Shown: piece after piece, positions 3,728-26,548 of the stretch | How positions within the stretch are numbered: the stretch's first letter is position 1 | Layout of the letters: the number at the start of each line of letters is the position of its first letter | From: a virus | Direction: 5' to 3' (one strand) | Virus record (IMG/VR): IMGVR_UViG_3300024933_000029 | Location: 1-64,000 of that record | Length of the DNA stretch: 64,000 nucleotides | Program-made: the position numbers and the translations under genes | The notes under the pieces: model-generated | What the model was told of the DNA's origin: nothing | The model's input: only the letters and a program-made list of their open reading frames with translations | The model's database searches: none

Positions 3728-3745
3728 TGCTCGAAATTTCGAGCA
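3728..3745. promoter_or_regulatory. Perfect 18-bp palindromic operator of the region A repressor
   Basis: The sequence tgctcgaaatttcgagca is a perfect inverted repeat between the divergent repressor gene (start 3755) and the small gene at 3677. A second partial copy of its core (gaaatttcga) lies at 3765-3774, inside the first codons of the repressor gene. Two sites flanking or overlapping the repressor start fit autoregulation plus control of the divergent early promoter. Confidence 0.75.
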
Positions 3746-3754
3746 TGTCAATTG

Positions 3755-5137: not shown

Positions 5138-5577
5138 CAGATCCACCATTCCCAGAAGTCTTCATCGGGCCAGGGATCGACGCCGCCGCTGCCTTCGGCC
5201 AGGTGGTCGTCCACGCGGGCCAGCTTGAGGTCGAACTCGATGCGGCGAGGCTTGCCGCCCGGTGTGTAGTGTGTGCCGGTCTGGCGCAGGTTTTCGATGA
5301 CCCAGGCCCCCAGCGGAGCATCGCCGCGCACCAGCGCCCAGGCCTTGCCGGAGTCGGCCATTTCGGTCAGGAAATCCAGCGACGCGGCCGTGCCCCGGAA
5401 CTCGGGCGCGAGCACGCCGCTGAGCGACATGCTGTCTTCGCCCGGGCCCAGCGACTGGCGGGCGGGGCGTGCGCCTACGCGGCTGTTGCTCGGATGGCGC
5501 CAGGCGCTGTCGCGCGCCATCTTGTCGAATGCCAGTGTGTCGATGCCAAAGGCAAACAGGCCCAGTGTGATCAGCAT
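5137..5577 (-). CDS. U: Tail protein gpU
   Basis: A 146-residue gpU homologue, close to P2 gpU in length (159). In P2 it is required for tail assembly. Recognisable parts are the MLITLGLFAFGIDTLAFDK start, and the WALVRGDAPLGAWVIEN and RRIEFDLKLARVDD blocks. The reading frame stays open far upstream, but that part is Arg-rich antisense of the tape measure gene. The start is the ATG at 5577, with GAGG nine bases upstream; the ATG two codons earlier is too close to it. The stop overlaps the gpD start. Confidence 0.92.
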   Translation of the reverse strand: MLITLGLFAFGIDTLAFDKMARDSAWRHPSNSRVGARPARQSLGPGEDSMSLSGVLAPEFRGTAASLDFLTEMADSGKAWALVRGDAPLGAWVIENLRQTGTHYTPGGKPRRIEFDLKLARVDDHLAEGSGGVDPWPDEDFWEWWI

Positions 5578-5588
5578 GCTCATGCTCC

Positions 5589-8321: not shown

Positions 8322-8434
8322 GGAGGGCTCCCTGGCCGGTGCGGTGTTGGCGTTGGGTGGAGGTCATGGGCAAGGGGCGTGCAAGAGAGGGGCGAGAGGC
8401 GGGCGATGGAGTGGAAGTGGTGCTCAGTCCTGGC

Positions 8435-8551
8435 TCAGTCCTGGCTTTCGTAGCGCTCGCGCGCCCGTTCATGCCATTGGCCGAGTTCGGCCAGCGACAT
8501 GTCCTCCATGTCCGCCGGCCGCCAGTGGAAGACCATGGCCAGGTCGGCCAT
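8435..8551 (-). CDS. E': GpE-family tail protein, 38 residues (P2 E' segment)
   Basis: A very short reading frame starting MADLAMVFHWRP and ending ERYESQD. It matches the P2 GpE small-protein pattern (hydrophobic-FHW, then MSLAELGQWHERARER). It overlaps nothing but sits in the -1 frame relative to the upstream chaperone gene, and that -1 frame is open from the slippery site at 8599-8605 through this ORF. It is therefore probably made mainly as the C-terminal part of an E+E' frameshift fusion of about 161 residues, as in P2, rather than from its own ATG. Confidence 0.85.
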   Translation of the reverse strand: MADLAMVFHWRPADMEDMSLAELGQWHERARERYESQD

Positions 8552-8559
8552 GGCGTCCT

Positions 8560-8919
8560 CTACGCGCTCGGGAATTGCTCCCTCTGCGCCTTCGGCACCA
8601 AAAAAGAGGCCACCTCCGTACCCAGGGTCACCAGGTCGGCGGGGTCCAGCTGCAGCACCTCGGCCTTGTGCAGCATGGGCTCGGTCACGCGCGGCAGCAG
8701 GGTCTGCAGCGCGGTCACGTTCATGTGCAGCAGCTCGACCAGCGACAGGCCGCGCAGCGCGCCGGCATTGGGGCGGCGCACCAGCACCCGGGCCAGGTCG
8801 CCGCCGGGGCGCTTGAGCGGCACGTCGAGCGTGATCTCGCGCGCATCGCCCGATGCGAGGGCGGCCGCGTTGGCGGCAGCCTGGTTCTGGAGGTCTTCCT
8901 GGGGCTTGGTGGTGTCCAT
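8560..8919 (-). CDS. E: Tail assembly chaperone gpE
   Basis: A 119-residue protein of the P2 gpE family, which chaperones the tape measure during tail assembly. It is recognised by REITLDVPLKRPGGDLARV and the DPADLVTLGTEVASFL ending. A TTTTTTG heptamer falls near codon 106, in phase for -1 slippage. Translation in frame gives E; slippage gives E+E'. It lies between tube protein FII and tape measure T, the invariant position for tail chaperones. Confidence 0.92.
   Translation of the reverse strand: MDTTKPQEDLQNQAAANAAALASGDAREITLDVPLKRPGGDLARVLVRRPNAGALRGLSLVELLHMNVTALQTLLPRVTEPMLHKAEVLQLDPADLVTLGTEVASFLVPKAQREQFPSA
8599..8605 (-). other. -1 programmed frameshift site (T TTT TTG)
   Basis: On the minus strand the heptamer TTTTTTG is in phase (TCT TTT TTG) with the gpE frame. 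After a one-base slip the frame reads GAEGAEGAIPERVEDA without a stop directly into the GpE-family ORF. This is the same heptamer as used by P2 E+E'. Confidence 0.88.
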
Positions 8920-8987
8920 GGTGTGTCAGCGTTCGGGTGAAGAAAAGAGGAGGACCGGGCCGGCCGGCCCGGTCAGTTGAGCCAGGC

Positions 8988-9497
8988 TCAGATGCCCAGC
9001 GCGGCGCGGACCTGGGCGAGGCGGTCGATGCCGTTGACGACTTCGACGAAGTTGACCGGATCGATCTCGATCAGCACCTGGCCGTTGATGGACAGGCGGT
9101 AGTAGCTGACGGCCAGCTTGTACTTGATCTCGGTCTTGTCGCCGGCCTTGGCCTTGCCGGGGTCGAACTCCGAGAAGCGGCCACGCATGACCACTTCCAG
9201 CGAGTCCACGCCTTCGCTGTCATCGCCCTGCAGGGCGCCGGCGAAGCGCAGCAGCACGCCGTCGTGGCGCAGCGTGCCCCAGGTGGAGATCAACTCCTTC
9301 ATGTAGCCGGCAGCGGTCAGGTCGGCCTCGATGGCCTCCATGCCGAAGTCCAGGCTGACCTCGCCGTTCATGCCGCCGGCGCGGTACTTCTCCATCTTGC
9401 GGGTGAGCTTGGGCAAGCCCACTTCGGGCATGTCGCCGATGTACGAGTTGCCATCCACGAAGGTGGCGAAATTCTTGAGAGAGCGGGGCAGTCCCAT
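8988..9497 (-). CDS. FII: Major tail tube protein gpFII
   Basis: A 169-residue tail tube subunit, essentially the same length as P2 FII (172). Family blocks seen include MGLPRSLKNFATFVDGNSY at the start, then VGLPKLTRKMEKYRAGGMN and YYRLSINGQVLIEIDPVN near the end. It polymerises into the inner tube of the contractile tail. It sits directly downstream of the sheath gene. Confidence 0.96.
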   Translation of the reverse strand: MGLPRSLKNFATFVDGNSYIGDMPEVGLPKLTRKMEKYRAGGMNGEVSLDFGMEAIEADLTAAGYMKELISTWGTLRHDGVLLRFAGALQGDDSEGVDSLEVVMRGRFSEFDPGKAKAGDKTEIKYKLAVSYYRLSINGQVLIEIDPVNFVEVVNGIDRLAQVRAALGI

Positions 9498-9560
9498 GGT
9501 GCTTTTCTCCTGTGTATCCGGTGTGTTCGGTGTATTGGGTGTGTCGGGTGCGGCCGCCGC

Positions 9561-10754
9561 TTACTGGCCGGTGCCCACGCGCAGGGCGAAGTCGGCGAAG
9601 TAGCGATCGGTGATGCGCTGGCGAAAGCCCAGGTCCTCCAGCGGGGGCACGGGCGTGTAGTCGTAGTCCAGCACCAGCTTGCCGGCCTTGAGCGTGGCGG
9701 TCTCGTTGACCGTTTCGTCGTACCAGGCCTTGCCGTCCAGGATGTAGCCCAGGGCCTTCAACTCGCGGAACTTGGTGTTGATGCCTTCCAGGATGTCCTT
9801 GACCAGGCTGGGGTGCATGGGCTTGTCCACGGCCCAGAAATGCGCCTCGGCCATGGTGTCGGCCAGCACCTGCGCGGTGCGCACGCTGGACTCGAAGCGG
9901 AACAGCTCGCTGTCCGTGCAGGTGCGCGAGCCCCAGAAGCGGTGGCCCTGGCTCTGGATCAGCGTGGTGATGCCGGCCTGGTTGAGGATGCCGGCCTCGG
10001 TATCGGGGCTTTGCAGGTCCCAGTGCACATCGCGCGAGATGCCCAGCACGCCGGACAGCGGCACGTTGGACAGCGTCTTGTGCCAGCCCTGCTCCTGGTC
10101 GATGCGTGCGCGCAGGCCCAGGGCGTAGGCCACGGGCGAGGCGTCCTGCACGGCGGCGGTGGACAGGTCCAGTGCCTTGAAGCCGGGCCACAGCAGCATC
10201 AGCTCGCGCTGGCCGAAGTGCTCGCGGTAGGCCTGGGCCTCGGCCACATCGTTGCCGATGGCCGCTGCATACGCAAAGCCGCGCAGCTTGATGGCCACGG
10301 ACGCCAGAGCGTCGGTCACGGCCTGGCTGTCCAGGCCCGGCGCGCCCAGAATGCGCGGCTTGACGCCGAGCTGGGCCTGGGCCGCCAGCAGCGCCTGCAG
10401 GCCCGTGTACTGGTTGCCGGCGGTGGTGCCGATGACCTTGGCGTCCTGGTCGGTGCGGCGCTCGGCCTCGGTGGCGCCTTCGCCATCGGCCACGCGCACC
10501 ACGACCAGCACCGGGCGGCACTGCTCCTTGATGGCGTTCAGCGCCTGGGCCAGCGTGCCCTTGGTGCCGGCCTTGCCGATGGCCGCATCGACCTTGGTGA
10601 CCAGCACCGGACGGTTCAGCGGGAAAGTGGCCGCATCGGCGTCGCTGGCCGTGGCCACGAGGCCGATCACGGCCGTGGACACGATGCGGATGGAATTGAT
10701 GCCTTCGCTCACTTCCGTGACGCGAATGCCATGATGGAACGGGGCTGTCGCCAT
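9561..10754 (-). CDS. FI: Tail sheath protein gpFI
   Basis: A 397-residue contractile sheath subunit (P2 FI is 396). It starts with FHHGIRVTEVSEGINSIR and contains STAVIGLVATASDADA, YAAAIGNDVAEAQAYREHFG and the tail-sheath C-terminal block FRFESSVRTAQVLADTMAE. It proves that the element encodes a contractile, myovirus-type tail. The gene is intact with no internal stop. Confidence 0.96.
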   Translation of the reverse strand: MATAPFHHGIRVTEVSEGINSIRIVSTAVIGLVATASDADAATFPLNRPVLVTKVDAAIGKAGTKGTLAQALNAIKEQCRPVLVVVRVADGEGATEAERRTDQDAKVIGTTAGNQYTGLQALLAAQAQLGVKPRILGAPGLDSQAVTDALASVAIKLRGFAYAAAIGNDVAEAQAYREHFGQRELMLLWPGFKALDLSTAAVQDASPVAYALGLRARIDQEQGWHKTLSNVPLSGVLGISRDVHWDLQSPDTEAGILNQAGITTLIQSQGHRFWGSRTCTDSELFRFESSVRTAQVLADTMAEAHFWAVDKPMHPSLVKDILEGINTKFRELKALGYILDGKAWYDETVNETATLKAGKLVLDYDYTPVPPLEDLGFRQRITDRYFADFALRVGTGQ

Positions 10755-10811
10755 GGTGTTCTCCGGGTTGGGGGGTGGTTGGGCCGTGGGGCTGTCGTCA
10801 AAAAGGGGTGG

Positions 10812-11297
10812 TCACGGCTGTTCGTGGGCTTGTACGGGGCCGTCCAGGATTTCCTGGGCACGCCCCGCGGCGATGAGTCCGAAGGCCTCGAACTGGCGCA
10901 GGCTGTCGGCCAGTTCGGGGTCGTCAAGATCGAGTTGCCGCGCCTGCTCGATGTCCTTGAGCAGCGAGCGCAGCGTGGCCGCGTTGAGCCGGTCGGCCTC
11001 GCCCGCCTCGGCACGGTCCACCACGGCCCACTCCAGCGCCGTGCGCTCGACCACGGTGAAGCGGCGGCGTAGGGCGTGGGGGGTGATGTGGCGGGGGGCG
11101 GGTTCGTTGGACGCTGCCTGGTCTTCAGGCAAGGCTTGCGCCACGTCTTCCCAGTGCGTGCCCGTCCAGCGGCGGCCGAGCACCGAGGTGTCGTAGCGGG
11201 GCAGGGGCAGCAGGTCGGGAGCGTTGAGTTCGGCGTGCGTTTCCGTGATGGCGAAGGCCACGCCGGTGGGGGTGAGCTGGGCGTAGTGGTGGGGCAT
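10812..11297 (-). CDS. putative tail-fibre-associated / fibre assembly protein
   Basis: A 161-residue protein. The N-terminus (MPHHYAQLTPTGVAFAITET, then LLPLPRYDTSVLGRRWTG) looks like the short N-terminal domain seen in phage tail-fibre chaperone-like proteins. The C-terminal half is charged and helical. It lies between the fibre-type genes and the sheath gene, where P2 carries the fibre chaperone G. Its ATG overlaps the upstream stop as TAATG, implying translational coupling. The chaperone role is inferred from position. Confidence 0.5.
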   Translation of the reverse strand: MPHHYAQLTPTGVAFAITETHAELNAPDLLPLPRYDTSVLGRRWTGTHWEDVAQALPEDQAASNEPAPRHITPHALRRRFTVVERTALEWAVVDRAEAGEADRLNAATLRSLLKDIEQARQLDLDDPELADSLRQFEAFGLIAAGRAQEILDGPVQAHEQP

Positions 11298-11692
11298 TAC
11301 TTGAACTCCACAACTTCCCAGGACAACTCGACGTTGGATGTATACGAGCCAGTAGTGCTTCTCAGAATTTCGATTCTGTTGCTGTCTAGCAATCTCATTC
11401 GAGTCAGGTTCGCAAAGCCGCTATCGCTCGCAGCGTAGTATCCAGTGCTGCCCAGAAATGAGACTAGGCACTTGCTTGGATTCACGGTGGCTATGCTGAT
11501 GACCGTTGGATTCGTTGCGTTGTACAAGATCGAAACGATCCCCCTTTGCACACTCTTGATCACGCTGCTGTTATTGACCTGAGTGGTCAGCCCGGCAATC
11601 TCGATGCGTGCACTTGACACGGCACTGCTCAGCGCAGCAATCTCCGCCCGCGTCTTTACCAGATCGGCACTGATGACGGCATCCAGGCTCAT
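11297..11692 (-). CDS. small tail-fibre-like protein
   Basis: A 131-residue protein. An N-terminal helix with heptad character (residues about 1-45, ending SSARIEIAGLTTQVNNSS) precedes a beta-rich, Ser/Thr/Asn-rich C-terminal half with a receptor-binding look (ending ELSWEVVEFK). I start it at the ATG at 11692; the frame is open upstream but that part lacks coding character. The lower GC and different codon use from the neighbouring tail genes suggest a recently acquired fibre-tip module. Confidence 0.6.
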   Translation of the reverse strand: MSLDAVISADLVKTRAEIAALSSAVSSARIEIAGLTTQVNNSSVIKSVQRGIVSILYNATNPTVISIATVNPSKCLVSFLGSTGYYAASDSGFANLTRMRLLDSNRIEILRSTTGSYTSNVELSWEVVEFK

Positions 11693-12022
11693 GCAGGCAC
11701 CTTTGCGCAAGCTGCGGTGTTGGCGGGATCGACAGTGATGGTTTGTGTCATGCTGAAGTTCATGCAGCCAAGGCGGCCTGGTTGTCCTGGCAGGGCCTGC
11801 AGCCTGCAAGGCCGCTGGCGCTGTGCCCGGGTTGCATTGATGTTCTCGCGGCAGGGGCATGGGCGCCAGCGACCTTGGCTGTGCCGGAGGGCTGCACAGA
11901 GGCTTGGTTTTGCACCGGTGCGGGATGCAGATCAGAAACGGAAAAGCCCCAGCTACGTGTGCGCTGAGGCTTGAAGGGAAGAGCACTATGTGGATGTAAA
12001 GCCCGCGTTTGGCTTCTTGGAA
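11693..12022. other. non-coding interval inside the fibre module
   Basis: About 330 bases with no convincing gene on either strand. It holds a probable rho-independent terminator (11941-11972) behind the Gly-rich fibre gene. The downstream fibre-tip gene therefore probably has its own promoter here, which I could not pinpoint. Confidence 0.5.
11941..11972 (-). terminator. rho-independent terminator after the Gly-rich fibre gene
   Basis: On the minus strand an 8-bp stem (agcctcag / ctggggct, one G-T pair) closes an 11-base loop and is followed by TTTTC. It lies about 50 bases past the stop of the gene ending at 12023. Confidence 0.6.
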
Positions 12023-12703
12023 TCAGTACTCTTCGATGCGGATGAACCCGCCTGTTGCCGCAACCGGAGGCAAGAAGGTTTTTGATGTGTAGTTGTAGAC
12101 TCCTCCAGCCCCTCCTGCTCCGTAGCCAGTGGCTGCTTGCACCACTCCTGACACGATGCGCGCGCCGGTTCCCATAGTTGAGTTGCCTCCGGTTGCATTC
12201 GTACCCGCCAGCCCGGGGATGACGCCGGTCGCATAGAGCACACCACTCTGCCCATTGGCACCGTTTCCGTCGCCAGCCGGGGACCCCGAATATCCTCCGA
12301 GGGCGATATATCCACCAAGGACAGTCCGTCCGCTGGCGGGTACTCCCACCTCGTATGGGACTGAGGATGGAAGTCTGACGCGGTGTTGCAGTTCGGAGCC
12401 ACCGCCACCACTACCACCACTGTAGTAGCCATAGCTTATTTGGGCACCTGGAGCACCCGATCCGCCCGGACCCATCAGTGTGATGATTTGGTAAGAGCTT
12501 TCAGGCAGAACAGCGTGCGTCCCCGCCCCCGACGTATACTCCGTCACCCTCAGCGGCTTGCGCGCAGCGGCCGTCCCCAAACCGGCCAACGTACTCTCGA
12601 TCTGCGCCAGCTTCGTCGTCAGCGCAGTCGTCTGCGACTGCACCGTGTTGACCTGACCCTGCAGCGCCTTGACGCCTGCATTCGTGATGGGATCGAAACT
12701 CAT
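12023..12703 (-). CDS. Gly-rich tail fibre protein
   Basis: A 226-residue protein. The N-terminal ~45 residues are a predicted trimeric coiled coil (KALQGQVNTVQSQTTALTTK). The rest is very rich in Gly, Ser and Tyr (MGPGGSGAPGAQISYGYYSG and similar), like the polyglycine-rich receptor-binding tips of some phage fibres, and it ends FIRIEEY. Its ATG overlaps the stop of the upstream gene by four bases. AT content is higher than the baseplate genes, again suggesting exchange of the host-range module. Confidence 0.75.
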   Translation of the reverse strand: MSFDPITNAGVKALQGQVNTVQSQTTALTTKLAQIESTLAGLGTAAARKPLRVTEYTSGAGTHAVLPESSYQIITLMGPGGSGAPGAQISYGYYSGGSGGGGSELQHRVRLPSSVPYEVGVPASGRTVLGGYIALGGYSGSPAGDGNGANGQSGVLYATGVIPGLAGTNATGGNSTMGTGARIVSGVVQAATGYGAGGAGGVYNYTSKTFLPPVAATGGFIRIEEY

Positions 12704-13239
12704 CCCTGTACCTCCGTCGCATTGACCCCCGACACCCGCCCCGTGGCGGCGTCGTAGGCATAGGTTTCCGTGCGCACGCGCCCGCGGTAGCTGGTCTGCT
12801 GCTGGGAGACGCGGCCGGCGCCGTCGTAGCTGACGGCGGTGGTGGCGCTGAAGCCGTTGACGCTGCGCGTGATGCTGCTGATGCGGCCCTGGGCGTCGTA
12901 GCCGAAGCTTTCGCTGGTGGCGCCGTTGGCCGGGCCCAGCGCGATGTGCTCGGGATTGAGCTTGAGGTTGACGCCGGCCACGCCATTGACGCTGGCCACC
13001 TTGCCTGTGCTCAGGGCCTGGGTCGCGGTCTCCAGCTGCTCTATGCGGCGGGCCACGATGTCCATGGCGTCCTGCACGCCCTGGGAGCTGGCCTTGGTGT
13101 CGATGAGCTGGCGCGCTGCGGTCAGCGCCTGGTCCACGTCCTGCACGGCCTGGCGCAGGCGCAGCACGTCGTCTTCCAGGCGGTTGTCGGGGTGGGGCAG
13201 GGGCCAGCCCTGCGCTGTCTTGTCGTCGTGCAATGTCAT
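12700..13239 (-). CDS. Tail protein with YD (RHS-like) repeats
   Basis: A 179-residue protein. Residues about 20-75 are helical/coiled coil (VLRLRQAVQDVDQALTAARQ). A short VNGVAGVNLKL linker follows, then two to three YD-repeat-like units: GYDAQGRISSITRSVNG, YDGAGRVSQQQTSYRG and YAYDAATGRVSGV. YD repeats are known from RHS and teneurin shells and occur in some phage fibre adaptors. Its ATG overlaps, as ATGA, the TGA that ends the alternative frame of the upstream DUF4815 gene, so that frame is probably the ancestral end of the upstream gene. Confidence 0.72.
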   Translation of the reverse strand: MTLHDDKTAQGWPLPHPDNRLEDDVLRLRQAVQDVDQALTAARQLIDTKASSQGVQDAMDIVARRIEQLETATQALSTGKVASVNGVAGVNLKLNPEHIALGPANGATSESFGYDAQGRISSITRSVNGFSATTAVSYDGAGRVSQQQTSYRGRVRTETYAYDAATGRVSGVNATEVQG

Positions 13240-13345
13240 ATCACGATGGCTCGCAGGTTGGTGACCTGGGGACGGGCGCCGTGGCTGCCCGTGAGGACCA
13301 AGCGGACACGCAGGCGCTCAGCGCTGATGCCGGTGAGGCGGTAGC

Positions 13346-16300
13346 TCAGCTCCAGCACGCCTGCGGTCTGGGGCTGGTGCTCAGGTAGGGCACGTTGGTC
13401 CAGGCGCTGCTGCCTTCGGCCTGCATCTGCACGGCCAGGGCGCTGCCGGCGGGCAGCACGGCCTCGGCCACGACGTTGAGCGTGACGTTGGTGCCGGCGT
13501 TGATGGCGGGGCTGATGTAGTCGCCCGTGGCCTGCAGGCTGCCGGCCACCAGCTGCATGCCCGGCAGCAGGTGGGCCGCGTGGTTGGTATTGCCGGAGAG
13601 CTTGGCGCGCACGGCCACGTTGCCGCTGTAGCGGCTGGCCAATTGCACGGGCTGCCCTGCAGCGGCCTCGAGCGTGGTGCCGTCCTCCAACTGCATGGCG
13701 AAGACCAGTTGCGCGTCGGCCGCGGGCAGCATGGCGCCGGCCTGGACCATGAGGTCGGTGGCGTCCTGCACGGCGATGCTGCCCAGCTCGATGGTGCGCG
13801 TGTTGGCCGTGTGTTCGGTCGCCAGCAGCTCGAATGCCAGGTCGCGTGTCTGGTGCGGTGTCCAGGTGCTGGCGTTGCTGCTGGACAGCAGCACGCCCAC
13901 GCTGTAGGGCTGGCTGGTGACCCACTGGGCACGTGCGGCGTCCCAGCCGCCCAGCTCGGCCACAGCCAGGGCCGTGGTGTTGTCGTTGGTCAGCACGACG
14001 ATGGCGTATTCGACACCGGACTCCAGCAACGCAGGTGCCCATTGCGCCTGGGTGGGCTTGGCGCCAGCGATGTCGGCCTGGATCTGTGCGGGCTTGAGCA
14101 CGCATTCCGCCAGGATGCTGCGCGATGGCACACCGCCGGTGACTTCGCGCAGCTGTACCTGCACATCCTTGTCACCCACGGTAGAGAACCACAGGCGCGT
14201 GCCGCAGATCTCCCGGGTGGAGCTCAGCGTGAACGTCTGGGCCAGCGGGTCGTAGATCTGGACAGTGATCTTGGACACGCTGCGTTCGAGCAGTTGGCCC
14301 TGGCCGGTGAAGACGGCTTCGGCGTGGCTGCCGGCGCGGCCTGTGAAGCGCACGCTCTTGGTGCCCGAGGGCACGCCCGCCGGGATCTTGAACTTGCCCT
14401 TCAGGCCCTGGGCCGTGGCCACGAGCGTGCCGCCTGCCAGCGGCTGGGGCGTTACGGCAATACCACCAAAAATCAGCTCGGTGAGGGTTTCGCCCAGCGG
14501 GAAATCCAGCCAGAACTGCACCTCGATCTGCCGCAGATGCTCCAGTGCCGAAGTGGACTCGGACAGCAGCTTCTGGGTCTCCGTGGGACGCGCCTGGCTG
14601 GGTGTGAGCCAGACCAGGATGGGGTTGGCCCACTGGGTCTGCACGTCGGTCCAGTAGTCCACGGCGGGTGTCAGGGTGGCGGCGCTTGGCAGAACGTCGA
14701 AGGCGCCGTATGGGTTGACCAGCATCGTGCCGGTGCGCCCCAGCTGGCCCAGCACGGACACGGGCTGGTAGGGCGTGGTCTGGGGCGAGGTGATGTCGGT
14801 GCCGATCTGGTGCAGCGCGGCGTTCATGGGCAGTTGCAACTGGCCGCCCAGAATGTGGGCGGACTGGCTGCGCCCTGCATCGCGCAGGCCGTTGTCGATC
14901 ATGGGATCCGCAAACAACCCCTTCTTGACCCCGCTGTGCCGCCCCGACACGTCCACCGACAGCCGCAGCTCGGCCAGGTCGGCGTAGATGGTCTGGATGT
15001 GGTCCTGGTAGGCCTTGAGGGTCTGCATGGGCACGACGCGCACGGCGTCCTGGTCCACGCGGCGGTTGCTGTCCCAGCTTTGGTAGACCGAGGCCAGGGC
15101 CAGGGTGCCGCTGGGGGCGGCCGGAACCTTGGGCGACCAGGCGGCGGGCACGCCGGGCACCCACTGCAGCTGGCCTTCGCTGTTGAGCACCAGGCGGTCG
15201 TAGCGGCGCAGCGCGTAGTGGTAGCTGACCAGCACCAGGGTGTCCTTGAGCGCGCCTTCCACGGTGAAGCCCGTGGAGTCCACGGCCGTGGGCGTGGCGT
15301 TGAGCATGTACTGGTAGGTGACCTGGTAGGTGCTGCCGGGCACGGGCTCGGCGCCCGAGGGGCTCCAGTCGATCTGGCCGCCCACCAGCTTCCAGTCCGT
15401 GCCCTGCACGTAGGTGGTGCCAGCCTGGACCACGCTGTCCACGGCCAGTACGGCGTTGTCGGGCAGCGGGTCGGCCGCGCCCGTGAAGCCGCCGTGCGTG
15501 AGCGTGACGGTCTTGCGGGCCTGCACGCGCACCTGGGGTGTGCCAACAGCGGGCTGGCGGTCGAAGCGGATGCGCTGGGCGGCCGTGCCGGCCGAGGTGT
15601 GGGGCTCGCTGTCCACGAAGAACAGGTCGGGCTTGGCCTCGTAGACCAGGCGGCGGCTGGCACCCAGTTCCAGCGGATGGCCGTTGACGCGGGCGGCGCC
15701 CTCGCGCACGGTGTAGACCTGCTGGCCGGTGGCCAGGTCCTCGCCCATGATTACGTCCAGGCCGCGCACCACGTAGGTGCCGCCCGCGCTGTCGCGGTCA
15801 TAGCGGGCCAGGGCCTGGGTGACGGCATCGATGTTGGGCGGCGGCTCCTTGGGCATGACGGAGCCGTCGATGATGGTCCACACGGGATAGAAGGTGCCGG
15901 CCGTGCCGTCGCCCTGCGCACCCCAGACCAGGGTCACGCGCTCGCGCAGCGCACCGGGCTCGCCATAGCCGCGCGTGCCGGCGGCGGGGTTGAGCAGTTC
16001 GGGGTCCTGCAGCTCGGTGACGGTGTCGGTCTGCAGGTAGGCGCCCACGTAGACCGTGCCCACGGTGGCCACGGTGAGCGTGCCCGGCGTGATGCCGCGC
16101 ACGGCGCCGGCCACGTAGAGTGCGCCGGCCTCGATGGTGGTGGCGCCCGTGTCCGCGGAGGTGATGCACTGGCAGCCGCGGACGATGTCGCCCTCCTTGA
16201 ACAGCACATCTGTGATGCCGCGCAGGCGGTGCTGCTGCATGCTCTGCAGCTCGTTGAGTTCGGCCGATTGCAGCACGCGGTCGGCCGCGAACTGCAGCCT

Positions 16301-16351
16301 GTCGTAGCGCTTGCCGGCGTCGAAGCGGTCGTAGATCTTGGTCTGGCTCAT
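13346..16351 (-). CDS. DUF4815 tail fibre/baseplate protein, C-terminus frameshifted
   Basis: A 1001-residue protein recognised by its start (KIYDRFDAGKRYDRLQFAAD, then RVLQSAELNELQSMQQHRLR), typical of DUF4815 proteins that replace fibre gene H in many P2-like phages of beta- and gammaproteobacteria. The body is beta-rich. The frame ends abruptly in RPQACWS at 13346. If one C is added in the CCCC run at 13370-13373, the frame continues about 45 residues as TAGVLELSYRLTGISAERL and on to a TGA at 13236 that overlaps the next ATG. The present stop therefore looks like a recent frameshift, a programmed shift or a base-calling error. Confidence 0.88.
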   Translation of the reverse strand: MSQTKIYDRFDAGKRYDRLQFAADRVLQSAELNELQSMQQHRLRGITDVLFKEGDIVRGCQCITSADTGATTIEAGALYVAGAVRGITPGTLTVATVGTVYVGAYLQTDTVTELQDPELLNPAAGTRGYGEPGALRERVTLVWGAQGDGTAGTFYPVWTIIDGSVMPKEPPPNIDAVTQALARYDRDSAGGTYVVRGLDVIMGEDLATGQQVYTVREGAARVNGHPLELGASRRLVYEAKPDLFFVDSEPHTSAGTAAQRIRFDRQPAVGTPQVRVQARKTVTLTHGGFTGAADPLPDNAVLAVDSVVQAGTTYVQGTDWKLVGGQIDWSPSGAEPVPGSTYQVTYQYMLNATPTAVDSTGFTVEGALKDTLVLVSYHYALRRYDRLVLNSEGQLQWVPGVPAAWSPKVPAAPSGTLALASVYQSWDSNRRVDQDAVRVVPMQTLKAYQDHIQTIYADLAELRLSVDVSGRHSGVKKGLFADPMIDNGLRDAGRSQSAHILGGQLQLPMNAALHQIGTDITSPQTTPYQPVSVLGQLGRTGTMLVNPYGAFDVLPSAATLTPAVDYWTDVQTQWANPILVWLTPSQARPTETQKLLSESTSALEHLRQIEVQFWLDFPLGETLTELIFGGIAVTPQPLAGGTLVATAQGLKGKFKIPAGVPSGTKSVRFTGRAGSHAEAVFTGQGQLLERSVSKITVQIYDPLAQTFTLSSTREICGTRLWFSTVGDKDVQVQLREVTGGVPSRSILAECVLKPAQIQADIAGAKPTQAQWAPALLESGVEYAIVVLTNDNTTALAVAELGGWDAARAQWVTSQPYSVGVLLSSSNASTWTPHQTRDLAFELLATEHTANTRTIELGSIAVQDATDLMVQAGAMLPAADAQLVFAMQLEDGTTLEAAAGQPVQLASRYSGNVAVRAKLSGNTNHAAHLLPGMQLVAGSLQATGDYISPAINAGTNVTLNVVAEAVLPAGSALAVQMQAEGSSAWTNVPYLSTSPRPQACWS

Positions 16352-16361
16352 GGGGTGCCGT

Positions 16362-16847
16362 TCAGAAGGGGAGGATGATTTCTTCGACCTGGCGCACGCT
16401 GCCGCTGCGCAGAATTCGGGGGCGGCGCTCCAGCGTGTACAGCTCGCCCTTGCCGGTCAGCTGGCTGGCCAGCACCCAGCGCTGGCCGGGCGGCACGTCC
16501 GTGGCGACCTGGGTGCCGAAGAACACGCCCATCTCGCGCACGTCCTCGCCCTTGGCATCGTCGAAGCCGAAGGCCGCACGCAGGTAGACGAAGGTGGTGG
16601 GTGTGTCGCTGACGCTGTAGCGCGCGCCGCTGGGCAGCTCGATCTCGCCGTTGTCGTCCGGCCGCGCAAAGCGCACCTCGGTGACAAGGCGGCGGCCGAT
16701 TTCGTCGACCAGGGCGTTGGCGGTGATGGGTTCGGGCTCGGGCGCGGCATCCCAGGCGGGCAGGCCGCGGCCCCAGGCGATGTGGATGGTCTGGGCGGCG
16801 ACGGCCTTGGCGAGGGCGATGCGGCCCGCTTGCTGCAGAACTGCCAT
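16362..16847 (-). CDS. phage tail/baseplate protein of unknown function
   Basis: A 161-residue protein lying between gpI and the DUF4815 gene, a place where many Burkholderiales P2-like phages carry a conserved unnamed protein. Visible pattern: helical start (QQAGRIALAKAVAAQTIHIA), then a beta-rich domain with VYLRAAFGFDDAKGEDVREM and GVFFGTQVATDVPPGQRW. It resembles the N-terminal fold of phage tail-collar/fibre attachment proteins, but I cannot assign it firmly. Likely role: adaptor joining gpI to the fibre. Confidence 0.7.
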   Translation of the reverse strand: MAVLQQAGRIALAKAVAAQTIHIAWGRGLPAWDAAPEPEPITANALVDEIGRRLVTEVRFARPDDNGEIELPSGARYSVSDTPTTFVYLRAAFGFDDAKGEDVREMGVFFGTQVATDVPPGQRWVLASQLTGKGELYTLERRPRILRSGSVRQVEEIILPF

Positions 16848-16849
16848 GT

Positions 16850-17830
16850 TCAGGGTTCCTCGGGTTCTTCGGTGGTGGTGGTGCGGGTTTCGAAGGATCG
16901 GCGCCAGGGCGTGCTGTCCCAGCGTCCGGTCCAGGTACGGGTGTTGTCGTGCGGGCGCTCGGTGCTGGCCCAGGGGTGCAGACTGGCCAGGGCCAGCGGT
17001 GCGGGCGCCGTCCAGGCGCTGTGGGTGGCCATGGCCTGGGCGGGAATGGGGCGCAGCGGCGCGTAGTAGGCGGGCTCGCCCGTGGTGGTGGCGTTGACTT
17101 CGGTGATGCCCAGGCTGGCGTCGATCAGGATCTCGCTGTCCAGCGTCCAGGCATCGAGCAGCATGCGGTCGGCATAGGTGGCGATGGTGGTGACGCGGAA
17201 CAGCTGGGCCGTGAGCACGCCGTCCGAAGGCGGTGCCTCGGTGCCGGTGCGGCGGGGCAGGCCCTGGCTGAGCTTGACGGGTTCGCCATACGGCGACACA
17301 TCGATCCAGGTGCCGCTGTCGTTGTCCAGCATGCCGGCGTCCAGGCCCGGGCCGTGGTCCAGCCGCAGCGGGCGCAGATCGTGGCCGTGGAAGACGCGGT
17401 AAAAGCGCACGTGCGCCGGCAGGCTGGCGCGCACCACATGGGCCACGCTGGCCAGCTCTGCGTCGCCGATGATGCGGCCCAGGTCCAGGTGCAGCCAGGC
17501 ACCATCCTCGTCGAGCTGCGCGCCGTCATATCCCAGCCAGCCCAGCGCACGCTGCAGGGACGCGGCCGTGCCGCGCTCGCGCAGCCAGGGCAGGCCGTTG
17601 GCGATGAGTGCGGGTACGTCTTCGAAGTAGCGGTCGAACTGGGCAATGCCCCATTCGGCCGCCAGCCAGGGCAGAAAGGCCGCAGGCTCGCCCTGGGCCG
17701 GCGCGGGAAAGGCGCCGGCCAGGCCGTCCCAATTCGGGACGACCTGGTCCACGGCCTTCTCCAGCGCCGTGGCGTTGGGCGGCAGCACGTGGCGGCGGGG
17801 CGCCGTCGGGACGATGGCGGCGGTGCTCAT
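16850..17830 (-). CDS. I: Baseplate protein gpI, long form
   Basis: A 326-residue gpI homologue. The first ~175 residues match the family (LPPNATALEKAVDQV, FLPWLAAEWGIAQFDRYFED, WLRERGTAASLQRALGWLGY). P2 gpI is 176 residues, so this one has a C-terminal extension of about 150 residues ending in Thr/Glu-rich sequence, probably a fibre-docking addition matched to the DUF4815 fibre. The start ATG overlaps the gpJ stop (ATGA). Confidence 0.9.
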   Translation of the reverse strand: MSTAAIVPTAPRRHVLPPNATALEKAVDQVVPNWDGLAGAFPAPAQGEPAAFLPWLAAEWGIAQFDRYFEDVPALIANGLPWLRERGTAASLQRALGWLGYDGAQLDEDGAWLHLDLGRIIGDAELASVAHVVRASLPAHVRFYRVFHGHDLRPLRLDHGPGLDAGMLDNDSGTWIDVSPYGEPVKLSQGLPRRTGTEAPPSDGVLTAQLFRVTTIATYADRMLLDAWTLDSEILIDASLGITEVNATTTGEPAYYAPLRPIPAQAMATHSAWTAPAPLALASLHPWASTERPHDNTRTWTGRWDSTPWRRSFETRTTTTEEPEEP

Positions 17831-18684
17831 GCCTGCAGGCCCTCGTCCACCAGCTGGACGCGGCCCAGCACCGGGTATTCGTCGGCGGCCAGCGGCGTGA
17901 GTTCGGCCGGGGCCTGGGCGTCGGGGTAGGTGACGCGGGCAATGCCGTCCACATGCAGGCGCGTGGTGATCCACGAGCGCGGCACATCGCGGCCCAGCAG
18001 CGCGTAGGCTGCAATCTGGGCGGCCAGGCCGGCCTGCAGGCGCGCCACGATATCCACGGGCGCACCGGGCTCGCGCAGCAGGTGCGCCGTGATGTCGATG
18101 GGGTGCGGGCGCGCCAGCGATACCGACACGGGTACGCCCAGCGGCCGCGCGCCTGGCGCATTGAGGGCCGACAGCACGATGGCCAGGGTCTCTTCGGCCT
18201 GTGCGGGCTCGACCAGCCACAGCTGCACGCTCACGCGGCCGGGCTGGGGTTGCGTGGCAATGGCGCTGTGCACATTGGCGCTGGCCGTCATGGCCAGGTG
18301 CTCGTAGTGCTCTGCCGTTCCGCTGCCGGCCAGCGCGCGCACGCGCAGCAGGATGCGCTGGCGGTAGCGTTCGTCGCTTTCCCCGGGCATTCGGGCCACG
18401 TCATAGAAGGCGCCCTTGTGGTCCAGGTCCGAGCCCTGGGCGAACGCAATCAGGTGCGCACGCGCGGCATCATTGACGCGCGCCCGGTACAGCAGCTCGC
18501 GGTAGGCGTGCGCCTCCAGCAGCTTGTTGAGCGGCTCGCTCTCCAGCGCCAGGACTTCGGCGGCCTCCGGGTGGCGCGCCAGCAGATCGGCGCGGTGGGC
18601 GTCGAGGATGCGCTCGAAATCCAGCGTCTCGACGACGCCGGGCGGCGGCAGGGCGTCCAGTGCAGGGGTCATGTCTTGCTTCAT
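17827..18684 (-). CDS. J: Baseplate protein gpJ (wedge)
   Basis: A 285-residue gpJ-like baseplate wedge protein; P2 J is 302. Family blocks include VVETLDFERILDAHRADLLA, then ANDAARAH-like LYRARVNDAARAHLIAFAQG and the GSDLDHKGAFYDVARMPGE region. It starts at the ATG at 18684, overlapping the gpW stop. It forms with I and W the wedge that contacts the fibres. Confidence 0.94.
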   Translation of the reverse strand: MKQDMTPALDALPPPGVVETLDFERILDAHRADLLARHPEAAEVLALESEPLNKLLEAHAYRELLYRARVNDAARAHLIAFAQGSDLDHKGAFYDVARMPGESDERYRQRILLRVRALAGSGTAEHYEHLAMTASANVHSAIATQPQPGRVSVQLWLVEPAQAEETLAIVLSALNAPGARPLGVPVSVSLARPHPIDITAHLLREPGAPVDIVARLQAGLAAQIAAYALLGRDVPRSWITTRLHVDGIARVTYPDAQAPAELTPLAADEYPVLGRVQLVDEGLQA

Positions 18685-19031
18685 GAAAGGGTGCGGGCGA
18701 TGGGCATCTGCAGGCTCAGCGGTGCCGGGCGGCGCGTGTTGTTGAAGGTGCCGATCAGCGTCAGGTCGGCGCGCCCGGGTGCGGCCGGATCGCGCTCGAT
18801 CACGATGCGCGTCAGCCGGATGCGCGGCTCCCATCGCATCAGCGCGCTGGCCACGGCGGCGCGCAGGCGCGCCTGGGTGGCGTTGTTGTCGGGCTGGTCC
18901 AGCAGCGCCGGGACCAGCGATCCATAGTCGCGGCGCATCACGCGCGAGCCGATGGGCGTGGACAGGATGTCGGCCACGCTCTGGCGCAGATGCTCCATGC
19001 CCTCAATGCGGCGGCCTGTATGGCGGTTCAT
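18681..19031 (-). CDS. W: Baseplate protein gpW (gp25-like lysozyme fold)
   Basis: A 116-residue protein, P2 W being 115. It has the gp25-like pattern SVADILSTPIGSRVMRRDYG with DNNATQARLRAAVASALMRW and EPRIRLTRIVIERDP. These proteins form the core of the baseplate wedge and trigger sheath contraction. The start at 19031 overlaps the gpV stop. Confidence 0.95.
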   Translation of the reverse strand: MNRHTGRRIEGMEHLRQSVADILSTPIGSRVMRRDYGSLVPALLDQPDNNATQARLRAAVASALMRWEPRIRLTRIVIERDPAAPGRADLTLIGTFNNTRRPAPLSLQMPIARTLS

Positions 19032-19633
19032 AGCGGCCCCTGCGTGATGGCGTCGCCCGCCCTGACGCCACCATGGCGATGGCGCAGCAGGCTGATGGGG
19101 CCGGTGGTCACGTCGGGCGCGCCGGCCAGGCCTTGCGCATTGACGGTGGCCGATCCGCCACCGGCCTGCAGGCTGATGCCTTGCTCGTCGATGCTGATCA
19201 CCGAGTTGCCCACGCGCAGCGTGATGCCGTGGGCCACGTTGATGTTGAGACGGCCCGTGGTGCTGTCGTGCTCCATGAAATCGGTGGGGCTCCACTGCGT
19301 GTGGCACACCCCTTCGCGGTCGCTGGGCTGGGCTGCGGCGCTGCTGTAGATGCCGGTCAGCGCCACGGCGCCCAGCAGGTCGCCGCCGGGCGACAGCAGC
19401 ACGCACTGCTCGCCCACGGCAGGCGGCCACCAGACGCTGGCGTTCTCGCCCGCGGCGCGCAGGGCCAGCCAGGGAATCCAGTTGGTGGTCAGGTTGCCGG
19501 TCTTGACGCGGCAGCGCGCAGGGCGCGCATGGCGGACTGCGGCGATGGTGCCCGTGCGGATCAGCCCTTCCAGGCGGCGGATGATCTCGTACGGGCTCTC
19601 GGTTTGTGCGACGGGCGAATCCATGGCGTTCAT
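19028..19633 (-). CDS. V: Baseplate spike protein gpV
   Basis: A 201-residue central spike (P2 V is 211). An OB-fold N-terminal domain (about residues 15-100) is followed by a beta-helix (NINVAHGITLRVGNSVISID) and a C-terminal HRHGGVRAGD. The H-x-H resembles the iron-binding spike tip of P2 gpV. The trimer punctures the outer membrane. I start at the ATG at 19633; the 48 upstream open codons are Arg/His-rich and not family-like. Confidence 0.93.
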   Translation of the reverse strand: MNAMDSPVAQTESPYEIIRRLEGLIRTGTIAAVRHARPARCRVKTGNLTTNWIPWLALRAAGENASVWWPPAVGEQCVLLSPGGDLLGAVALTGIYSSAAAQPSDREGVCHTQWSPTDFMEHDSTTGRLNINVAHGITLRVGNSVISIDEQGISLQAGGGSATVNAQGLAGAPDVTTGPISLLRHRHGGVRAGDAITQGPL

Positions 19634-19719
19634 GGTGCCGGCCGGGCCCTTGCGTGTCGCCGTGTGCCGGGCGTGGCGCACGCCGCCACATGCAGCCCGG
19701 CATGGAGCAGGGCCACGCC

Positions 19720-20229
19720 TCAGCGCGGGTCGTAGTTCCACTCGGCCACCTTCTCGCCGAACAGGAACAGCTCCCACAACTGGCGCTGCGCAATGTCGAG
19801 CTGGCCTGGCGGCTCGGGCTTGTAGATCAGGTCGAAGGCGCCGGGGCTGCCCTCGCGCGGGCGCGCCAACACGGCCTCCACCAGGTCGATCTCGATGGCG
19901 AGCTGCTGCGGCTGCGAGGCGGCTGCAGGGTCCGTGGAAGGAGGCGCAATGTCGAAGCGGATCGCCTGCTCGCGCTTTTCGGCATGGTCGAACAGGTCGG
20001 GCTGGTGGCGCCGCGCCCAGACCAGCAACGGCACGGTCACGGCATCGATGCTGTCGGTGAAGTCCGCAATCACCAGGCTCAGCGTGTAGCGGTATTCCCA
20101 GGAAAGGGACGGCGTGCCCGTGTTGACCACACGGCCCCTCTGGATGGTGAAACGGATGTTCCCCGGCGACTGTTGCAGCTGGGGCAGGGCAGCGACGAGC
20201 GCGTCGCGCAGGCTAGCGGGCTTGAGCAT
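19720..20229 (-). CDS. R: Tail completion protein gpR
   Basis: A 169-residue homologue of P2 gpR (155): it starts MLKPASLRDALVAALPQLQ and contains the conserved SLSWEYRYTLSLVIADFT and VTVPLLVWARRHQPDLF segments, ending WELFLFGEKVAEWNYDP. gpR, with gpS, completes the tail end that joins the head. In P2, S follows R immediately; here R is followed after 86 bp by V, so S is absent. Confidence 0.9.
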   Translation of the reverse strand: MLKPASLRDALVAALPQLQQSPGNIRFTIQRGRVVNTGTPSLSWEYRYTLSLVIADFTDSIDAVTVPLLVWARRHQPDLFDHAEKREQAIRFDIAPPSTDPAAASQPQQLAIEIDLVEAVLARPREGSPGAFDLIYKPEPPGQLDIAQRQLWELFLFGEKVAEWNYDPR

Positions 20230-20779
20230 GGCGTGGGTCCTGGGTCATGGTGCTGGTCAGGGCACTCGTCAGCGCGAGCCCGGCGTCGTAGGCGCGCTCG
20301 CAGGCGCTGCCTCGGTGGCGGGCGTCGTCAGCAATGCGCGCCAGCGCTCCCGCTCGCTCGTCAGCGCGGCGCTGCAGCTCGGCGAGCAGATCGAGGGCTG
20401 CGGTGTCTGGCGTGCACTGTCCGGCAGCGGCGCGAGCCTGGGCGGCGGCACGGTGGGCGGTGATGTAGTCGGCGAGGTCGCCGCGCAGCCGGCCAGCAGC
20501 AGCGCGGGCAGCATCGGCATCCGCCGCAGCGCGCGCCAGGGCCAGGTCCGTGTCGCGTGCAAGAAAGTCGAGGCGTTCACGGTAGGCTCCTTCCCGTTGT
20601 CGATAGCGTTCGGATGCGTGCAGGGCGGCGGTGGCAGCGGCCTGGCGGTCTGTCGCCAGATCCGTGCGCGCCTGCGCCGCATCGCGCTCGGCACCCAGCC
20701 GCGCCAGCGATTGCCATACCAGCAGCGCCGCCAGCAGCAGGGCCAGCAGCTGCCAGGCATGGGTTTGCAGGCGGTCCAT
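20213..20779 (-). CDS. Rz: i-spanin (Rz-like)
   Basis: A 188-residue type II membrane protein: a transmembrane segment at about residues 8-25 (WQLLALLLAALLVWQSL) followed by an Ala/Arg-rich periplasmic coiled coil, the layout of Rz spanins (DUF2514-like). It joins the outer-membrane lipoprotein Rz1 to disrupt the outer membrane at lysis. The Rz1 gene is nested inside it in another frame. The start ATG at 20779 overlaps the lysozyme stop; the end overlaps the start of R by 17 bases. Confidence 0.85.
   Translation of the reverse strand: MDRLQTHAWQLLALLLAALLVWQSLARLGAERDAAQARTDLATDRQAAATAALHASERYRQREGAYRERLDFLARDTDLALARAAADADAARAAAGRLRGDLADYITAHRAAAQARAAAGQCTPDTAALDLLAELQRRADERAGALARIADDARHRGSACERAYDAGLALTSALTSTMTQDPRHAQAR
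20269..20520 (-). CDS. Rz1: o-spanin lipoprotein (Rz1-like), nested in Rz
   Basis: An 83-residue frame wholly inside the Rz gene in a different phase. It begins MPMLPALLLAGCAAT, a signal sequence with a lipobox (LLAG-C), followed by a Pro-rich stretch (SPPTVPPPRLAPLP), the hallmark of Rz1. Start at 20520, or 20514 two codons on. The nested arrangement matches lambda Rz/Rz1 and strongly supports both genes. Confidence 0.85.
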   Translation of the reverse strand: MPMLPALLLAGCAATSPTTSPPTVPPPRLAPLPDSARQTPQPSICSPSCSAALTSERERWRALLTTPATEAAPASAPTTPGSR

Positions 20780-21360
20780 CAAGGCTGGGCCTCCATGCAG
20801 GCCGCGTGGCGCGCCTGCTGGCGTGTCCACACGCCGCGGCACACCTTGTTGCCGGGAGCCGAGCAGTCGAAGCGCCAGCGCGTGGGCCGGCCTGCGCCAT
20901 CCCATCGATAGGCGCTGAAGCCCTGCAAAGGCTGGCTGCTGGTCATGAATCGCCAGGACAGATAGGACTGGCAGGCGCCGGCGTAGTCGCCAGCCCGTGT
21001 CCTGGCCAGCATCGAGGAGCCGCGCCAGGCCCCGCAGCTGTATTGGCCTGCGAAGTCCACCGCCTGGGCGAACTCGGCCGGGTGCACCCGCGTGTCGCCC
21101 AGCGAATCACGCACGCAGGCGCCGTACTGCTGCTCCAGCAGGTTGATGGCCAGCTCGCGCGCCCGTTCGCGGGTGATGGGTGGGTCGGCCAGGGTCACGC
21201 GTGTGCCGTCCTCGTAGCGCGTGGCGCCGTGGCCGATGGTGGGCACATCGCCGCGAACCGGGATGATCGGATCTGCGCTGAAACCTTCTGCGGCAATCCA
21301 GGCCGCGAGAATGGCCGCGCCAATGCCCAGGCCTGCCGCTGGCATGCGGGCCGTGCTCAT
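20779..21360 (-). CDS. Endolysin, lysozyme (GH24) with N-terminal SAR/signal-anchor
   Basis: A 193-residue lysozyme. The hydrophobic N-terminus (AAGLGIGAAILAAWIAAEGF) is weakly hydrophobic and Ala/Gly-rich, like signal-arrest-release domains. The catalytic pattern is E25-G-F, D38 and T41 within GDVPTIGHGAT, typical of phage RrrD-type muramidases. Seven or so cysteines in the mature part suggest disulfide control. It lies between holin and spanin genes in a compact lysis cassette with ATGA overlaps. Confidence 0.92.
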   Translation of the reverse strand: MSTARMPAAGLGIGAAILAAWIAAEGFSADPIIPVRGDVPTIGHGATRYEDGTRVTLADPPITRERARELAINLLEQQYGACVRDSLGDTRVHPAEFAQAVDFAGQYSCGAWRGSSMLARTRAGDYAGACQSYLSWRFMTSSQPLQGFSAYRWDGAGRPTRWRFDCSAPGNKVCRGVWTRQQARHAACMEAQP

Positions 21361-21623
21361 GGGGCCGCTCCGGTGTCTGTGGCGGTCGAAGACGCCTTCC
21401 TGCGCGCAGCGTCCTCGGCCTGGCGCGCGCGCCGGTCCTCGCGCTCATTGCGCCAGCGCCACAGCAGATACACGGCCTGCAGCAGCACGTAGACGATGGT
21501 CAGCGCGGTCGCGGTATGGGTCATGGTCCAGCCATTGGCCACGTTAGCGGCCACGACGGTGACGGGAGGCGCGGCCTTGGCGCCTTCCAGGGCGGCGGTC
21601 TTGACGATAGTTTCTCGGTCCAT
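21357..21623 (-). CDS. Holin
   Basis: An 88-residue protein with a hydrophobic segment at about 37-57 (ATALTIVYVLLQAVYLLWRW), a possible weak first helix (PPVTVVAANVANGW), and a highly charged C-terminal tail (RNEREDRRARQAEDAARRK). This fits small phage holins and resembles the HP1/Phage_holin_2 group. It is placed between tail protein X and the lysozyme gene, exactly where P2 has holin Y. Confidence 0.8.
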   Translation of the reverse strand: MDRETIVKTAALEGAKAAPPVTVVAANVANGWTMTHTATALTIVYVLLQAVYLLWRWRNEREDRRARQAEDAARRKASSTATDTGAAP

Positions 21624-21624: not shown

Positions 21625-21828
21625 TCAATCCCAGAAACTGATCAGGGGCAGGCTGGGGGCCTGGGTGGGTTCGGTCAGCTCGACGGCCAGGCCAGCGGGC
21701 AGATGGGGACCGTGGGCCGACAGGCCCGGGTTGCGCTCCAGCGTGGCTTCCACCACGCCGCGCGTGGCGCCCAGCTGGCGCATGCACAGCTCGTCCAGCG
21801 TTTCGTATTCACGGGCAATGGCCAGCAT
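21625..21828 (-). CDS. X: Tail protein gpX (LysM-like)
   Basis: A 67-residue protein, the same length as P2 X. It aligns by eye: REYETLDELCMRQLGATRGV, VVEATLERNPGLSAHGPHLP, and a GLAVELTEP and LISFWD ending. LysM-type fold; it binds the tail/hub. Start at 21828 with GGGAG nine bases upstream. It is the first tail gene of the operon; in P2 head genes Q-P-O-N-M-L precede it, but here none do. Confidence 0.93.
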   Translation of the reverse strand: MLAIAREYETLDELCMRQLGATRGVVEATLERNPGLSAHGPHLPAGLAVELTEPTQAPSLPLISFWD

Positions 21829-22163: not shown

Positions 22164-22196
22164 ATGACAAGACCCCGCAGAGCGGGGTCTTGTCAT
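22164..22196 (-). terminator. strong 15-bp hairpin terminator
   Basis: A perfect inverted repeat, atgacaagaccccgc / gcggggtcttgtcat, with a 3-base loop. On the minus strand it is followed by TTTCTG and lies 18 bases past the end of the SOS-associated small gene. It could also act on the plus strand. Confidence 0.75.
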
Positions 22197-22213: not shown

Positions 22214-22432
22214 CTAGCAGCGCTTGCTGCCAACTACCTGGCTGCGATGAAGATGGTCGGACAGGTCACCCGCCGCCGCGCTGAGCTTGCGTGACACGGG
22301 CAGCAGCAATGCGGTAATGGCCGAGGCGTGCACGGCCGTGCCCCGGGCTGCAGCCAGCAGCTCGCAGATGGCTGCCACTTGCTCGCTGGCGCTTTCCACA
22401 TCGTCCCTGACCGTCTCAATCTGGTGCTGCAT
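22214..22432 (-). CDS. small protein behind a LexA box (unknown function)
   Basis: A 72-residue, mainly helical protein starting MQHQIETVRDDVESASEQVA, with an amphipathic middle (HASAITALLLPVSRKLSAAA) and a Cys at the C-terminus. No family firmly recognised; it looks a little like the DUF1484-type small proteins of Burkholderiales. A 20-bp LexA box ends 16 bases upstream of the ATG, so it should be expressed on DNA damage. By analogy with phage 186 Tum it could be an anti-repressor or an activator of the tail/lysis operon, but that is inference. Confidence 0.65.
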   Translation of the reverse strand: MQHQIETVRDDVESASEQVAAICELLAAARGTAVHASAITALLLPVSRKLSAAAGDLSDHLHRSQVVGSKRC

Positions 22433-22447
22433 CGCGTCTTCTTTCTA

Positions 22448-22467
22448 CTGTATGCACATACAGTATA
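22448..22467 (-). promoter_or_regulatory. LexA (SOS) box
   Basis: tactgtatgcacatacagta: 9-bp perfect inverted arms around a 2-base centre, containing the CTGT-N8-ACAG consensus. It sits 16 bases upstream of the ATG at 22432, overlapping where its promoter should be. Confidence 0.88.
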
Positions 22468-23003
22468 GGTCGAATGACCAGATGTTTCAATTTGATGTGA
22501 CCCTTTTTCATCTGCTGATTGGCGATGACGGGCAGGGCCTTTGGTCGGGCTGCGCGCATGTTGGGTTGGCGTGTGCCGAGCGGCCTCGAAAGCCTTTTGT
22601 TGGCCCGCACGGATCCCGCGCAGTGAAGGCAAGTGATTGTTTTTGAATGGTTGACGACCCGCCCCCCGCGCACCACGCACCAACGCCGCTCAACTGCGGC
22701 GAACACTGCTCAAGCCCGCTTCCTGTAGAGGAGGCGCATTGGCCAGGCGGATTGCGGGATTCCCCTGCAAGAGCGCGCGTCTGGAAGGCAAAACCGCCTC
22801 GTTTATAATGTCCGGCTTCGCTTACATCACGGGTTGAGCGAACCATGTGCGGTCCCCAGCGGCCAGGTGCATGTGATGTAAGCCCTTGAAATCTGAGGTG
22901 CCGCGCGGCCAACTGGCTTGGCTCGCGTCGCACCGTGACTTTTGCGCAATACGGTGCGGGCTGTACAGCAGCCGGCACGGTCCAATCCCTCATAGGAACA
23001 AAC
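22468..23003. other. boundary interval between phage element and tig
   Basis: About 535 bases without a convincing gene. The right attachment site of region A must lie here or just left of it, but I cannot recognise a core without the left end. The tig promoter is near its middle, giving a roughly 190-base leader with several GC-rich inverted segments. Confidence 0.5.
22781..22809 (+). promoter_or_regulatory. probable sigma-70 promoter of tig
   Basis: A perfect TATAAT at 22804-22809 with a weak CTGGAA at 22781-22786 (17-base spacer). It is the only strong -10 hexamer upstream of tig and lies in an AT-richer spot (tcgtttataatgtcc). Confidence 0.5.
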
Positions 23004-24314: not shown

Positions 24315-24372
24315 GGGTTTGAGCACCGCCTGCCTGCCGCTTCGTGAGATCGGCGGGCGGGTTGGCATCTGC

Positions 24373-24410: not shown

Positions 24411-24449
24411 CGGATACGGCTAAAGTAGCCCCCTAGTACTGGAGAAAAC

Positions 24450-25058: not shown

Positions 25059-25082
25059 AGTCCGGAGGCTGCATGAGAATGG

Positions 25083-26525: not shown

Positions 26526-26548
26526 CCGCTGACAAACCGAGGATTCCC

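Follow-up and report, generated by a model that had tools for sequence, protein, structure and literature searches.

In phage 186, the features of the genome record place a LexA site over a -10 element, followed by tum and then a terminator (p95-tum-t95a, between gene A and the right genome end), in line with the LexA control of Tum cited in the original prediction. Tum, which has 146 aa and a C-terminal DinI domain, inhibits DNA binding by the phage repressor. In the Gifsy phages, the small LexA-controlled antirepressors GfoA, GftA and GfhA inactivate non-cleaved repressors, according to the available text of their description (PMC3121763). BceTMilo, a P2/KL3-like tailocin of Burkholderia cenocepacia, is described in the available text as RecA-dependent, with a P2-like tail/lysis locus that has an integrase, a CI-like repressor and Ogr, is cut between X and L and has lost S, a loss that its authors tie to tail-head docking; that text mentions neither 'LexA' nor 'SOS' (PMC5411513). 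The element described here resembles the BceTMilo locus in its tail/lysis genes, integrase, repressor and Ogr, in the cut and in the loss of S, and it carries a cassette whose layout and position match those of p95-tum-t95a. The Gifsy phages are of a different type from this P2-derived element.

The window, that is, the whole stretch of 64,000 nucleotides analysed, belongs to a 72.4-kb IMG/VR sequence (IMGVR_UViG_3300024933_000029), and its host is presumably Delftia or a near relative. Host genes for trigger factor, ClpP, ClpX and Lon (23004-28963) are flanked by the P2-type element on the left (Table 1) and by a second prophage with lambda-type terminase and portal genes on the right. A tRNA-Cys gene was also called in the window (43006-43094, minus strand); it lies inside a DUF5906/VapE-like ORF and is probably spurious.

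Table 1. Features of the P2-type element and its putative SOS cassette in the window
Feature	Position	Strand	Remark
gpA rolling-circle replication protein	520..2496	-	
Ogr/Delta zinc-finger late activator	3062..3385	-	
Arc-like regulator, first gene of early operon	3447..3677	-	
Probable C operator, perfect palindrome TGCTCGAAATTTCGAGCA	3728..3745	.	in leftward promoter spacer
Leftward promoter TTGACA-17-AATGAT	3751-3723	leftward	read by eye
Repressor C, 111 aa, helix-turn-helix only	3752..4087	+	Pfam
Tail block: gpR, baseplate genes, fibre region, sheath FI, tube FII, tape measure, U, D	4136..20229	-	without head genes, without S
Holin, endolysin, spanin genes	20213..21623	-	
Tail protein X, first gene of tail/lysis operon	21625..21828	-	
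Terminator-like hairpin after 72-aa gene, 15-bp stem	22164..22196	-	z = -5.5; without T-run
72-aa gene (P0001), predicted helical hairpin, proposed antirepressor	22214..22432	-	
LexA-type box TACTGTATGCACATACAGTA	22446..22465	.	20-bp palindrome
-10 TATACT	22462..22467	-	last 4 bases within LexA box
-35 TTGAAA	22485..22490	-	promoter scan
att region, prophage/host switch	22690..22736	.	inner border approximate

The predicted 20-bp LexA palindrome before the small gene was confirmed, with perfect 9-bp arms and a 2-nt centre. It does lie close before the ATG; the gap is 13 nt from the 20-mer (15 nt from the 16-bp core), not the 16 first given. The bare core CTGT-N8-ACAG was unremarkable (one in the window versus 0.78 expected), whereas the extended palindrome TACTGTATN4ATACAGTA with up to 3 mismatches was found once in the window versus 0.01 expected, and nowhere else in the whole record. 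The motif published for beta- and gamma-proteobacterial LexA is, in the available text, CTGTatatatatACAG (PMC3108266). A consensus box is thus present at the promoter of the 72-aa gene, as in LexA-regulated genes. Between 21500 and 23100 the only match of the promoter scan was TTGAAA-17-TATACT of this gene (22490-22462, minus strand, 10 of 12 consensus matches), a promoter that the original prediction had not mentioned. In all four other copies holding this DNA the box is identical, as are the 78 bp from the promoter to the start codon, while the neighbouring 180 bp vary by up to 6%. The '15-bp terminator' claimed behind the gene is indeed a strong 15-bp stem; it lacks a T-run and was therefore missed by the consensus terminator scan.

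A direct homology search with P0001 returned near-identical copies only, with nothing in phages or plasmids. The family was reached via relatives of the integrase, whose LexA boxes led to a homologue in prophage G009, and then by direct searches. That the gene travels together with this integrase was rejected, as the integrase was present in only 3 of the 16 family-bearing records, some of which are trimmed or fragments. The homologues are 33-43% identical to P0001 and have the core A-[LI]-CELLAAA in common. Fourteen family loci were compared, two of them (L110 and L113) without upstream DNA; in all of the remaining 12 (10 from other phages, 2 near-identical copies of the window element), CTGT-N8-ACAG lies 31-33 nt before the start and TATACT overlaps the first bases of the box. 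The pN/pS ratio of 0.14 over 36 pairs from nine close members indicates purifying selection, and hence a real protein. Five more distant members (L276, L277, L280, L281 and L282; the sequence of L277 ends inside the gene) adjoin the portal gene Q; four of them have boxes, two of these four having a tandem pair.

The family matched no Pfam, PHROG or NCBIfam model, the Pfam and PHROG scans giving weak scattered matches only (best E 0.018). AlphaFold2 modelled P0001 as a two-helix hairpin (pLDDT 83, pTM 0.58), and fold searches with this model gave no match at E <= 0.001; CsoR-like helical chains, with E > 1 throughout, were disregarded. At 72 aa, P0001 is about half the length of Tum; the family shows neither sequence similarity to Tum nor a DinI domain, and by these comparisons is not part of the Tum family. 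There was likewise no profile similarity to one 73-aa Gifsy-2 ORF behind dinI, which we presume to be GftA. No paper describing the family was found, judging by titles and abstract openings. By sequence, P0001 is the founder of a previously unnamed family.

The repressor, located by the original prediction at 3755 and starting at 3752, had been said to have no RecA-cleavable domain, and Pfam agreed: the 111-aa C protein has a helix-turn-helix and no S24 (peptidase) domain. A C homologue with 44-59% identity was found in 5/5 family-bearing prophages whose records cover the entire neighbourhood (G009, G016, G019, G025 and G032); left out of this count were G028, G030, G031 and G033 (no Q flank), G029 (ends at Q) and G027 (a 7-kb fragment). 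G032 begins at the gene, and the box region is absent from its record. The five C proteins given to Pfam (that of the window and four homologues, excluding that of G032) all had a helix-turn-helix only, without S24. The proposed partner repressor of the family thus lacks a RecA-cleavable domain in these five cases, as in the class of LexA-controlled antirepressors. Among 50 records with a close or distant C homologue, part of 80 C-related loci, 5 carry the family and 45 do not, many of the latter being fragmentary or distant; some C-bearing phages without the family have other LexA-boxed genes instead. In a second set, selected by Q (50 of 80 Q-related loci), an S24 protein was present in 8 records and was taken as the repressor in four (in one clearly, in the other three from its length and partial similarity), and the family was absent from all four. 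This contrast points in the right direction, but it is one-way and statistically weak, and, with so few S24 repressors in the Q-selected set, no statistical claim is made from it. The nearest named P2-like relatives found by DNA, Acidovorax phages Alfacinha1, Alfacinha3 and Acica, differ from the window element in having head genes and S24 repressors (by Pfam for Alfacinha1 and Acica; the Alfacinha3 repressor is 99.6% identical to that of Alfacinha1), and had neither the extended box nor the small gene. Phage KL3 has, in the interval separating repressor gene 13 from gene 14, a LexA-like box that departs from the extended pattern at 2 positions (L392 7773-7792) and could be the SOS input of KL3.

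The element has lost its head genes. The P2 capsid protein (PF05125) and tail protein S (PF05069) were absent in 5/5 records of the element (the window element and copies, two of them short fragments), with five relatives as positive comparison; the portal protein (PF04860) was absent in 3/3 virus records of the element; and tblastn revealed nothing convincing for Q, P, O, N, M, L or S. The portal, terminase and capsid genes of a complete Peduoviridae (P2-like) phage are therefore missing, and the anatomy is that of a P2-type tailocin, with tail and lysis genes kept, heads lost at X/L and S lost. A tailocin of this kind would be expected to make bactericidal headless tails after damage. The tail-fibre region (11314-12693) varies among copies that are otherwise 96-98% identical, which suggests host-range switching.

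A circular form was also found. Contig 59 of G005 (L007 + L008; 27,167 bases) has identical 157-base ends, and the ring that they close contains the integrase, attP, the cassette, tail genes, C, Ogr and gpA, and no head genes. A joined attP is also present in two more metagenome contigs, and the attP-form contigs depart from the window sequence at 22736. The identical ends and the joined attP indicate a circular or tandemly arrayed form of the element or of a close relative. Contig 59 matches the window at about 96-98% identity along most of its length and comes from a MAG labelled Alphaproteobacteria, in which we take it to be mis-binned. In L004, a HipA/HipB toxin-antitoxin-like pair lies between the element's AlpA-like gene and the integrase (773-2487). 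It is conceivable, if doubtful, that this headless P2 derivative is mobile and reverses the strategy of satellites that build capsids but borrow their tails: the SOS antirepressor would trigger excision, gpA replication and tail production, and the circle would spread via the heads or packaging of another phage. The 27-kb circular relative, joined attP, integrase and gpA, together with the missing head genes, favour this idea; against it stands the loss of S, the tail-head docking protein according to the available text on BceTMilo (PMC5411513).

We propose that the 72-aa gene, with its box, its promoter and the hairpin behind it, makes up an SOS cassette complete in itself, whose product is a LexA-controlled antirepressor of C in a P2-derived headless prophage, and estimate the probability of this reading at roughly 0.6. 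LexA bound over the -10 element would keep the 72-aa gene off. Upon DNA damage, LexA would be cleaved and the small helical protein made, which in trans would bind the non-cleavable C and lift it from its operator. The leftward promoter around this operator faces the Arc-like gene, Ogr and gpA; once freed, it would allow Ogr and gpA to be made, Ogr would turn on the tail/lysis operon, and lysis would release the tails. An SOS protein taking C off its operator would explain induction by damage. The best reading is that P0001 works like 186 Tum, inhibiting DNA binding by the repressor, or like Gifsy GftA, without being, by the comparisons made, a member of those families. Against the antirepressor reading count the lack of sequence similarity to Tum and to the Gifsy-2 ORF, the 45 records that have a C homologue but no family member, the weakness of the S24 contrast, the degenerate box beside the family-like ORFs of locus L285, and the missing P2-type Ogr site near X. 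The original prediction had offered an SOS relay that was either an anti-repressor or a late activator; the former fits the conserved promoter and box anatomy, the C homologue in all five prophages, non-cleavable where tested, and the 186-like layout.

The gene might be LexA-controlled and not be the inducer, encoding an SOS-timed accessory protein (for host takeover, division block or RecA modulation) while C is lifted otherwise. LexA-boxed UmuD-like, SRAP-like and unrelated small genes are common in related prophages, where a box of the same type as that of P0001 precedes the UmuD-like and SRAP-like genes and is for that reason read as an SOS box; in Tum itself the C-terminal half is a DinI domain. 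Locus L285 has three consecutive family-like ORFs next to Q (4701-6334), with only a degenerate box, and some family members may do something else. We nevertheless consider an accessory role unlikely for P0001, since the single-gene cassette occupies the same place in several lineages and since family members with a visible repressor have the C homologue, non-cleavable where tested; the element has no other extended LexA box, and a non-cleavable C needs a link to damage if the element is SOS-inducible.

The other half of the original prediction, that the protein is a late activator, is disfavoured, as is the related idea that the SOS transcript runs into X and so drives the tail/lysis operon directly. 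In favour of these readings, the cassette has the same orientation as X and lies 385 bp upstream of it, the hairpin between them has no T-run, and no P2-type Ogr site (TGT-N12-ACA) was found near X, with 1 match in 22.7 kb versus 2.2 expected. In the five P2-like prophages with a whole neighbourhood, however, the cassette lies just outside Q and convergent with it (in G009 with the integrase at the opposite prophage end), and the gene must therefore act in trans there. The window element corresponds to such a prophage minus Q-P-O-N-M-L and S, and it is through this loss that X directly follows the cassette. Its place at the head of the tail/lysis element was correctly described, but it is, by this comparison, a secondary by-product of head-gene loss. 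With a strong 15-bp stem before X, an Ogr-type activator already in the element, and a predicted helical hairpin without a Pfam DNA-binding domain, direct activation of the tail genes by either route appears improbable.

P2-like phages seem able to exchange the SOS cassette beside Q, with Tum in 186, the P0001 family here, and elsewhere other LexA-boxed genes unrelated to it in sequence. Another small conserved gene (MKVKVTILRE.../MTVRIFILRE...) was seen directly behind LexA-type boxes of related prophages, in L019, L020, L029, L046, L049, L053, L221 and L238. In L219, L228, L242, L243 and L244, genes of 57-61 aa behind LexA-type boxes resemble, by eye, C-terminal repressor tails; these are possibly antirepressors acting through mixed oligomers.

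Palindromes preceding phage genes are often repressor sites, and the box could in principle be the operator of the phage's own repressor. By script, a palindrome directly in front of C was found in 10 of the 11 phages compared. Its sequence varies from phage to phage, the window version occurs only once, and it is unlike the box, which keeps to the LexA consensus in every lineage and is found before UmuD-like genes as well; an operator of C at the box was thus rejected, and we regard an own-repressor site as very improbable. A chance origin of the palindrome, in front of a spurious ORF of a decayed prophage, would fit the frequency of the bare core and the missing head genes; as far as sequence can do so, it is refuted by box and protein both being conserved in distant phages, together with the extended match, the promoter overlap and the pN/pS ratio.

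P2-type tailocins such as BceTMilo are RecA-dependent, yet the available text does not name a route by which damage acts on the repressor (PMC5411513). The cassette is a concrete candidate for such a route in P2-type tailocins, and its gene represents an antirepressor-like family, so far without a name, for which a partner and an operator are predicted. The trick of disabling a repressor by an SOS protein is known from other phages; here it is probably performed by an unrelated protein. An exchangeable SOS cassette beside Q would explain how non-cleavable repressors are inducible, and a circular, integrase-bearing, headless element raises the question of how tailocin loci spread.
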